From contig QQUE01000012.1 of assembly GCA_008501765.1 (NCBI GenBank), positions 1 through 64,000 of the forward strand: a DNA stretch of 64,000 bases, in the 5' to 3' direction. This DNA is from Calditrichota bacterium. GTDB taxonomy: Bacteria; Zhuqueibacterota; Zhuqueibacteria; Zhuqueibacterales; Geothermadaptataceae. Below, piece after piece: positions 56,614-61,869 of the stretch (position 1 is the first letter of the stretch; every line of letters begins with the position of its first letter). The notes below the pieces were generated by a model. That model saw only the letters and a list, made by a program, of their open reading frames with translations. It was not told the DNA's origin and did no database searches. Both the position numbers and the translations under genes were made by a program.

Positions 56614-57474
56614 TCATTTTAATTCGAGATCAGCGACGACAGGGCGATGATCAGAAGGCACTATTCCATTCCAATTTTCTGCAATAATTCCCTGACGCCA
56701 CACATGCCATCGTTCATTGACAAAAATAAAATCGATATTTTTTAATATATTTTCATCGGGTTGAAAACCGGTATAAGTTCCGAATGGCCCGTAGGCGGCA
56801 TCGCCGACGACAACGCGCGTATCGAACAACGGTTTGTCGGCCCGGGTGAGCAGAGAATAAGGGGCTGAACTCGCATCAAAATTAAAATCACCACTCAAAA
56901 TTACCGCTTCGCTCCCGGCCATTTCGCGTATTTTATCCATGATCAGGGCGGCGCTGTGGCGGCGGGCTTCCACACCTCGATGATCAAAATGTGTATTAAA
57001 AAAGAAGAAGGAAGTGCCATTCGCAATATCCGTCATCTGCGCCCAGGTAACGATACGCTCAAGCGCAGCATCCCACCCGACACTCGCTGTATCCTCCGGT
57101 GTTTTACTGAGCCAAAATGTGCCCCAATCAATAATTTCAAAGCGGTCTTTGCGATATAAAATTGGCGAATATTCCCCTTTTTCTTTCCCGTCAGCGCGGC
57201 CAACGCCCACTGCCGCAAACTCCGGTGCCATTCGTTTAATATCATCGAGCTGATTTTTTAATACTTCCTGCATGCCAACCAAATCCACACGATGAAAATC
57301 CAGCATTTTCGCTACGCCTTCACGGCGATTTTTCCAAATATTGTCGCCGTCATTGGGGTTATCATAGCGAATATTAAAGGACATCACCCGTATTACTTTT
57401 TTTTCCGATCCAGCACTTTGATTGCAAGCCAATGTCCCGAATAATAACGCAACAAACAGAATGCGAAATCCCAC
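56614..57474 (-). CDS. Endonuclease/exonuclease/phosphatase (EEP) family secreted protein
   Basis: 286 aa. Signal peptide with Cys at 17 (LFVALLFGTLACNQSAG), an imperfect lipobox, so possibly a lipoprotein. EEP motifs: VMSFNIRYDNPNDGDNIWKN, VGMQEVL (metal-binding Glu), the FFNTHFDHRG catalytic His, LSGDFNFDASS, and C-terminal PSDHRPVVADL. Members cleave phosphodiesters in nucleic acids, sugars or lipids; the substrate is not clear here. Next gene upstream is the candidate selenoprotein, with a terminator between. Confidence 0.87.
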   Translation of the reverse strand: MGFRILFVALLFGTLACNQSAGSEKKVIRVMSFNIRYDNPNDGDNIWKNRREGVAKMLDFHRVDLVGMQEVLKNQLDDIKRMAPEFAAVGVGRADGKEKGEYSPILYRKDRFEIIDWGTFWLSKTPEDTASVGWDAALERIVTWAQMTDIANGTSFFFFNTHFDHRGVEARRHSAALIMDKIREMAGSEAVILSGDFNFDASSAPYSLLTRADKPLFDTRVVVGDAAYGPFGTYTGFQPDENILKNIDFIFVNERWHVWRQGIIAENWNGIVPSDHRPVVADLELK

Positions 57475-57516: not shown

Positions 57517-57551
57517 AAAAAAAAAGCGATGCCTGATTACAGCATCGCTTT
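57517..57551 (-). terminator. Rho-independent terminator after the metallophosphatase-fold gene
   Basis: Perfect 10-bp stem AAAGCGATGC (57523-57532) / GCATCGCTTT (57542-57551), 9-base loop. On the minus strand the stem runs into nine T (A run at 57517-57525, partly inside the stem). It lies 20 bases after the stop of the 57571-58542 gene, so it ends that transcript before the EEP gene. Confidence 0.87.
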
Positions 57552-57570: not shown

Positions 57571-58542
57571 TCAGTTACCAGCCTTCGCTTTTTCGATCCG
57601 GCGTTGCTGGCGCATTTGTCTTGCTTTTGCATCCGCTGCCATTTTATTTTTAAATATTTTGTCGAACGGCAGCCATTTTGGCGAATCAGCAACATTATCG
57701 CCCAGCGGGATGATATCGCAGGTTACCAGCGCCGCTTCCTCGCGTTTTTTCTTCTTCAAAGTGACAAGAGCTAATTCTCGACCGCGGTCGCCCGGCCCGA
57801 CAATGGGAACCTGTCCATCAAAGATTTGTGCTTCCATCGCTTTGCCATTGCTATTGCCGAGAAACATGAGATCAAATCCTTCCAGCGTGGAGATCAAATC
57901 CAGGGATTCTTTCTTTCGGCCGAGAAAAACCAGGATTTGAAAATCCACCTTTTTCTTACGAAAAACTTCCTGTGCGTTTAAAATCGTTTCCACGGGCGGC
58001 AATAATTTATTGTTGCGAAAATAGCTGCGATAATTTTCTGAAATCGCCGAGACTATGCCAATTTTAGCGCCGTTGTGCTTAAATATTCTATAGGATTGAT
58101 CGATTTGAACACCGGCTGTATCAGCGATGTTCCCTGATAAAAACATCGGTGTTTTCTCGTCCCGTTTTGCTAACCACACAGCGGCAGTATCTGCATAATC
58201 CCGCTTGCCAATCGTAATTAAATCGTAGCCCATATTTGACATTACATCCCAAATTAAGGCTGTGATCCATCCGCGCCGGCTGCTGGCGGATTCACCGCTG
58301 TCGCCACCATCAACGAGCAAAACCTCGGGATGTGCATTGCGAATACTGTCTATTGTTGTCCATCGCCTGGCCAGACCGCCACGCCTGCTGCCATGTCAGC
58401 CACAGGGCAGCAAATAGCCATTTGCCGCGCTGGAATAAAGGATGGTTAATTTCTTCTCTTTCGCCGCCATCTCTCCGGAAGACAACGGAATCAATGCTGC
58501 TATTCCTAAGAACGCAATTGCCACTTTAAAAAATCGTGTCAT
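57571..58542 (-). CDS. Secreted UshA-like metallophosphatase-fold protein, probable selenoprotein (in-frame TGA = Sec49)
   Basis: 323 aa if the TGA at 58398-58396 is read through. ATG 58542 has GGAG upstream and begins a signal peptide (MTRFFKVAIAFLGIAALIPL). The reading frame on both sides of TGA is the same and continuous: LTILYSSAANGYLLPCG-U-HGSRRGGLARR, then HPEVLLVDGGDSG. In the family as I remember it the motif reads PCGC...GGLARR, so TGA stands where Cys is expected. Just after TGA a hairpin (stem TGGC/GCCA, loop GGTCTG, outer pairing CAT/ATG) places GGTCTG 18 bases downstream, the spacing I recall for the E. coli fdhF SECIS. The usual metal ligands (DxH, GNHD/E, GHSH) are replaced by SSA-, GKRD and GNSN, so it may not be a phosphatase. 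A nonsense mutation is the alternative. Confidence 0.78.
58361..58398 (-). promoter_or_regulatory. Candidate bacterial SECIS element
   Basis: Immediately 3' of the in-frame TGA on the minus strand. Upper stem UGGC/GCCA closes the loop GGUCUG. Lower pairs CAU-x-GC with GC-x-AUG, with an 8-base bulge on the 5' side. GGUCUG begins 18 nt after UGA. From established knowledge, SelB needs a stem-loop at this distance with a GU in the loop; this one has GGUCU, as in E. coli fdhF. The bulge makes the fold weaker than the textbook case. Confidence 0.65.
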
Positions 58543-58696
58543 CGTGCTCTCCATTTTTTCAATAATTAATTTAAATGAACTGATCTTAATTTGCATAATT
58601 AAATGAATGAAAACCCCAAATTTTCTCTTACCTTTATTAATATAGCTTTTAAATTCATTTTTCAAGAAATTTCTTTTCTAAAATCTAAATTTTATC

Positions 58697-60624: not shown

Positions 60625-61869
60625 ATGAGTATCAACCCTAACTATCTGGTGCCGATAAAATTTTATGACGGGCTGCCCCCGCATTACGTCGCTTTGGAAG
60701 ACATGAAAGATTTTGCTAAAGAAGCACTCGGACAGACCAGGGTGAAAGTAAATCGGCTACTCTTTGTCAGTTTTCTCGATATGTACGCTGAAGTTTCGGT
60801 GAACGGCCAGACACGTATCGAAAATCTGCTAAGGCCAGGCGACGGCATGGTTGATGAATCGTTGCAAAGCCAATTTGCACCAACCCAAAGCGAACAGGCC
60901 ATTGAAGCCTTCCTGGAAAAATATGGTGATGCCACAGAAGCATTGCCTCCCGATGACGAATGGTGGGAAGAATACATCTCCGGTGTGCCCGATTATAACA
61001 GCGTCTGCCGGCCAGGTGATCCTTATCCAACACACAGGAATGGTTGTGCACCAGCAGCGAGTGGTTGTGTCCTGGGTTATTGGGATGACCATGGCTACGT
61101 AAACCTGGTGGATGGCGGTGGAAGTTCATACATGGGTTCCGAATGTGCGGGAGGATTTTTAAAGCTTAATTGGTGTGAATTGGGCCCTGCGATGGGATAT
61201 TATCCGAATAATGGTACTTATGTTGGATATATCCCGGGGGGAATTCAAACAGTATGTAATAACAATGGATATAGTAGTATAGATGTAGATGGCAATTTCT
61301 GGCATTCTTCAGCACCCGAAGACCGCTCAATGTACCATTCAGAAATTAATGCTGCTAAACCATTTGTTTATACCAGTAGTCATCCAAATTGGAATTATGG
61401 CTGGCATACTATGGCTGCGACCGGTTACAAAGAGAATCTGTATTGGCATTATCGGATTGCACATGACAATAATGCCTATACAGCGAAAAAAGTCTATTTT
61501 AATGAAGTGAGTTTTTCAGGATCTACATATATTACTACGATACATCCAGGATCATCAAAACAAAAAGCCGTAAAAACGGATTTGCAACTTCCAACTGAAT
61601 ATTCAGTGAGCGCTTATCCCAATCCATTCAATCCAACAACAAAGATAAGCTGGTCAATCCCAAACAAGAAAAATGTCCAATTGAATATTTTCAATACGAA
61701 CGGCGTTCTGGTTTTTAACAAGGATTTTGGAGCACAGGAAGCAGGGCAACATGCTTTCACCTGGGATGCAAAAAATAAGCTTGGCAATAGAATGAGCAGC
61801 GGTGTTTATCTTGTCCAAATTCGCAGTGGCCAAAAAAAGATGAGTCAGCGTATCACTTTATTGAAATAA
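60625..61869 (+). CDS. C39-like cysteine peptidase domain with T9SS sorting domain (downstream part of a split gene)
   Basis: 414 aa, in the same frame as 60214-60609 and 15 bases after its TAA. By itself it lacks a signal peptide, so it would not be secreted unless it belongs to the upstream part. The ATG at 60625 has no good ribosome-binding site. Peptidase core: NGCAPAASGCVLGYWDDHGY (nucleophile Cys region) and NYGWHTMAATGY (His region), like peptidase C39-type domains in secreted proteins. The C-terminus is a type A T9SS sorting domain (VSAYPNPFNPTTKISW ... SSGVYLVQIRSGQ). Intact homologues would be extracellular proteases; whether this copy works is doubtful. Confidence 0.75.
   Translation: MSINPNYLVPIKFYDGLPPHYVALEDMKDFAKEALGQTRVKVNRLLFVSFLDMYAEVSVNGQTRIENLLRPGDGMVDESLQSQFAPTQSEQAIEAFLEKYGDATEALPPDDEWWEEYISGVPDYNSVCRPGDPYPTHRNGCAPAASGCVLGYWDDHGYVNLVDGGGSSYMGSECAGGFLKLNWCELGPAMGYYPNNGTYVGYIPGGIQTVCNNNGYSSIDVDGNFWHSSAPEDRSMYHSEINAAKPFVYTSSHPNWNYGWHTMAATGYKENLYWHYRIAHDNNAYTAKKVYFNEVSFSGSTYITTIHPGSSKQKAVKTDLQLPTEYSVSAYPNPFNPTTKISWSIPNKKNVQLNIFNTNGVLVFNKDFGAQEAGQHAFTWDAKNKLGNRMSSGVYLVQIRSGQKKMSQRITLLK

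Follow-up and report, generated by a model that had tools for sequence, protein, structure and literature searches.

The minus-strand gene at positions 57571..58542 of the window (the whole stretch of 64,000 nucleotides that was analysed) very probably encodes an exported UshA-like (COG0737) CxU selenoprotein, in which an in-frame UGA is decoded as selenocysteine (Sec); this reading explains the observations best overall. The gene comprises 323 codons including Sec49. Its frame runs from the ATG at 58542 to the stop codon TGA at 57573-57571 and is interrupted only once, by the TGA at 58398-58396, which forms codon 49. As the preliminary description had stated, the flanks of this codon, LLPCG and HGSRRGGLARR, lie in the same frame. 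When the TGA is read as Sec, the product consists of 323 residues and contains a putative signal peptide, the segment TILYSSAANGYLLPCG-U-HGSRRGGLARR, and then a UshA-type domain. By reading of the sequence, the signal peptide (MTRFFKVAIAFLGIAALIPLSSGEMA) was placed at 58465..58542 (minus strand), and a GGAG-type ribosome binding site (tggagagc) was located at 58548..58555 on the same strand, a few bases upstream of the ATG. Given the predicted signal peptide, the product is probably exported. A strong intrinsic terminator, an 11-bp stem followed by a T-run (57523..57551, minus strand), lies directly 3' of the gene, which is therefore probably the last one in its transcript.

Homologues of the gene were searched for in 63 genomes of the class and were found in 60 of them. 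The 59 homologous loci were read in all six frames. TGA stood at exactly codon 49 (58396..58398 in the window, minus strand) in 54 of these loci, belonging to 53 genomes, while the other five (L036, L059, and L080-L082) carried TGT or TGC in the Sec column. Cys47, Gly48, and residue 49, either Cys or Sec, were invariant across the alignment of 58 rows. The UGA is thus aligned with Sec or Cys in its homologues, as expected from the earlier proposal that Sec replaces the second Cys in PCGC. The TGA could also be a real stop codon or have arisen from a lesion in a pseudogene or an error in sequencing, and the default annotation does cut the frame at this codon, with the 3' part appearing as a separate 249-aa ORF. 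However, we regard the probability of this explanation as negligible and reject it, as the TGA is common to 54 loci and recurs in independent genomes, Cys occupies its position in other homologues, and purifying selection acts on either side of it (dN/dS of ~0.08-0.13 both 5' and 3' of the TGA when compared with the closest relative). The freezing of silent sites 3' of the TGA and the full Sec machinery of the genome, both described below, speak against it as well. Taken together, the comparative data very strongly support the decoding of the TGA at 58398-58396 as selenocysteine.

The genome from which the window comes is 98.9% complete and consists of 21 contigs. It contains all the components of the Sec machinery that had been suggested as a check of the proposal, namely one tRNA-Sec with the anticodon TCA (66.4 bits, over the Rfam cut-off) as well as selA (544 bits), selB (342 bits), and selD (353 bits), each over its curated cut-off. 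The in-frame UGA is therefore found together with the machinery for its decoding. The selD gene contains one TGA of its own and is itself a selenoprotein gene (L021, G000:C3:229267-230187, minus strand; context ASSCG-U-AAKASP). Its hairpin has the perfect stem GAGUCC-GGUC-GGACUC with the loop GGUC located 17 nt after its UGA, and this hairpin is kept with compensatory changes in three members of the family (G050, G051, and G052). The contexts of selD in other families differ from that of the L021 hairpin. In many genomes of the class (L114-L137 and others), selD was also observed within an open frame of ~730-810 aa, which represents a fusion and is often accompanied by a shorter Sec-type selD.

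The Cys form L036 nests within a Sec clade in the tree. Its host genome, G007 (96% complete), has neither selD nor selB over the cut-off, and the pattern in this lineage, with Cys at the Sec site, is as expected if Sec decoding was lost. L080, L081, and L082 (genomes G052, G053, and G051, respectively), which belong to the window's family, represent a second, Cys-type UshA-like paralogue (DCGCGEDPAGGL, GHWHR) found alongside the Sec form.

A SECIS hairpin is situated at 58365..58384 (minus strand), as supported by its fold, by the conservation of silent sites, and by the pairing within the order. It consists of the loop GGUCUG (58377-58372) closed by UGGC/GCCA, followed by a G.G mismatch and then by GC/GC. 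The loop begins 18 nt after the TGA, and GGUCUG is located at the same offset in E. coli fdhF, so that the spacing given in the preliminary description was correct; the fdhF sequence used as the yardstick was confirmed as such against E. coli genomes. The two elements differ in that the stem in the window is shorter and the remaining sequence is unrelated. The hairpin satisfies the published bacterial SECIS model (PMC13188914), which specifies a loop of 3-9 nt with G in its first two positions, a distance of 16-37 nt from the UGA, and an upper stem of at least 4 bp. The upper stem has only 4 bp, and the folding energy is no better than that of shuffled sequences (z of -0.3 to -0.9). A search with Rfam near the gene gave no SECIS or other family above chance. 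It is the silent sites rather than the folding energy that show the SECIS element to be real. For this, the codons for conserved residues were compared in 12 genomes of the order, the proteins of which are 25-80% identical to that of the window. Codon identity at silent sites was 0.87 for codons +1 to +12 after the TGA versus 0.49 elsewhere (Mann-Whitney p 1.4e-5). In the closest relative (80% identical), 12 of 12 codons after the TGA are identical despite a dS of ~1.2-1.6. Within the order, L028 and L029 retain a hairpin at the position typical of the order, although their silent codons are quite different.

The preliminary description had presented the gene as a probable new selenoprotein. 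This did not hold, since UshA-like CxU selenoproteins (COG0737) were already among the known families in an ocean survey of 2008 (PMC2398784), are given in two reviews (PMC9312934 and PMC13188914), and are covered by the NCBIfam models NF041198 and NF049981 (PMC13188914). A novel selenoprotein family is thereby ruled out. NF041198, the 'UshA-like (seleno)protein' (UshA_like_PCGU), matched the window protein with an E-value of 1.9e-25, but the score of 89.5 bits lies below its cut-off of 275. The homology covers residues 14-269 and ends at profile position 272; the PCGU motif is common to both, and the metal site has met the same fate. Unlike this family, however, the window protein lacks the C-terminal multiheme cytochrome region (profile 356-519) and has no CXXCH. 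Relatives from the class that carry the tetraheme C-terminus (L041, L049, and L057) do pass the NF041198 cut-off, at 286, 314, and 284 bits. NF049981 (UshA-like family 2) is similar to the window protein in length, in the absence of a cytochrome, and in homology across almost the entire profile, but the score was 48.3 bits against a cut-off of 140, and the motif is CxU rather than the CxxU entered for this family in PMC13188914. The broad definition of COG0737 UshA-like CxU proteins, a UshA-type domain with a conserved CxU, does apply. Judged by its sequence, the window gene belongs to a catalogued family as a divergent variant without heme, outside both curated models.

The earlier assignment of a UshA-like scaffold was supported by the alignment profile, which matched the CD73/UshA structures with an E-value of 2e-42. 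AlphaFold run on two sequences gave a pLDDT of 47, too poor for use. Mapping from CD73 placed the metal ligands (D, H, D, N, H, and H) at A39, N41, D81, K113, L207, and N230 of the window protein, and the catalytic His and Asp at R114 and A117. All the metallophosphatase ligands had been described as substituted; this is right for five of the six, the exception being the bridging Asp, which is retained as D81. The Asn and His of the GNHE motif are absent from 58/58 rows of the alignment. The window protein thus resembles the 5'-nucleotidases UshA and CD73 in its N-terminal metallophosphatase-type domain and differs from them in the substituted metal ligands and catalytic residues and in the absence of the C-terminal substrate domain, so that it has neither the two-metal site nor the catalytic His/Asp of an active enzyme of this type. 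With the ligands lost and the GNHE Asn and His never kept, a metallophosphatase is very unlikely. A broader possibility is that the protein is still a hydrolase, resembling a nucleotidase or the SoxB thiosulfohydrolase, with Sec serving as a metal ligand or nucleophile. The fold does match both 5'-nucleotidases and SoxB, and the CGU motif adjoins the old DxH ligand in the sequence. However, the same replacements at the metal and catalytic sites, together with the loss of the GNHE Asn and His throughout the alignment, make such a role improbable. The SoxB model TIGR04486 gave 26 bits for the window protein against a cut-off of 550.

In the sister family f2 and in some other clades, a tetraheme cytochrome c554-like domain continues the same chain. 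Together with the retention of Cys-Gly-Sec by selection, this fusion in relatives favours redox chemistry or electron transfer. We therefore lean slightly towards an exported Cys-Gly-Sec protein that is built on a dead 5'-nucleotidase scaffold and may carry out thiol/selenol redox or electron transfer reactions outside the cytoplasm. In the proposed mechanism, the GGUCUG-loop hairpin 18 nt downstream directs SelB and Sec-tRNA-Sec to decode the UGA of codon 49 as Sec. The fold is derived from the N-terminal domain of 5'-nucleotidases, but the two-metal phosphatase site is gone, and Cys47-Gly48-Sec49, conserved instead, lies in the loop leading out of the former active-site strand. Cys and Sec would cycle via a selenenylsulfide and would exchange electrons with the fused tetraheme cytochrome c in the sister family and with a separate partner in the window's species. 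Alternatively, Cys-Gly-Sec might bind a soft metal, a metalloid, or a selenium or sulfur species, the protein acting in trafficking without electron transfer. CxU and CxC are able to chelate soft metals, export of the protein is probable, and the heme-less form has no known electron partner; since the cytochrome fusion in several clades points to electron transfer, we consider this binding role unlikely, if less so than the hydrolase. As for the redox role, no conserved neighbour outside the genus was found in support of it for the heme-less form, and the literature search returned neither a function for UshA-like selenoproteins nor a link of them to multiheme cytochromes.

The next gene, at 56614-57474 on the minus strand, lies beyond the terminator of the Sec gene and encodes an Exo_endo_phos-domain protein with a lipoprotein-like start (LACNQ). 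It adjoins the Sec gene in the same genus only. Operon logic involving this gene was ruled out because of the terminator between the two and because their adjacency does not extend beyond the genus. In ten genomes of other families (L095, L097, L102-L105, L107-L109, and L111), the Sec gene is preceded by genes for an exported NHL-repeat protein (~965 aa) and an OmpA/AMIN protein. This run does not adjoin the Sec gene in the window's genome, where a homologue of the NHL protein is encoded elsewhere (G000:C8:235045-237849). Another secreted-looking protein, with a C-terminal type IX secretion-like sorting domain (SAYPNPFNPTTKI...), is encoded at 60625-61869 of the window on the plus strand.

A different hairpin was found in the rest of the class. 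Outside the order (42 Sec loci), the codons of L-A-R-R-A build another stem, whose loop is located at +28 (+25 in six loci) and reads GGA or GGC, and GTC once. Between the Ala codon and the second Arg codon, the third bases pair in 42/42 loci (T-A in 33, C-G in 8, and T-G in 1), and those of the Leu codon and the next Ala codon covary as well. Neither pattern was equalled in 5000 shuffles (0/5000 as good in each case), figures that ignore relatedness and hence are not probabilities; the paired changes fall at silent sites. The +28-type hairpin spans 18 bases from the Leu codon of GGLARRA in L037-L079 and is absent from the window's order, the sequences of which can form only 1-3 of its 7 pairs; the five Cys forms can form few. 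In the unrooted tree, the order is a single clade with full support. As the order is monophyletic and the two hairpins are distinct, the Sec codon appears to have been kept while the hairpin changed. We consider it fairly probable that the SECIS was replaced within one family at one fixed Sec codon, the GGUCUG type at +18 in the order standing against the +28/+25 type in the class, and that the protein without heme works as a redox enzyme in its own right, with a partner of its own.

Throughout this group in the class, the GNHE residues are lost and Cys-Gly-Sec is kept, and the fused tetraheme cytochrome is present in some members only. Automatic annotation cuts genes of the type described here at the TGA, and their scores lie under the present NCBIfam cut-offs, so that such genes would be overlooked. 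Since 2008, UshA-like selenoproteins have been catalogued with no assigned function, and the analysis turns the 'nucleotidase-like' label into a redox hypothesis that can be tested. If the replacement proposed above is true, bacterial SECIS elements can be exchanged at a Sec residue that itself remains fixed, perhaps alongside changes in SelB. One Sec codon served by two hairpins in sister clades would then be a natural example useful for the study of SelB/SECIS co-evolution.
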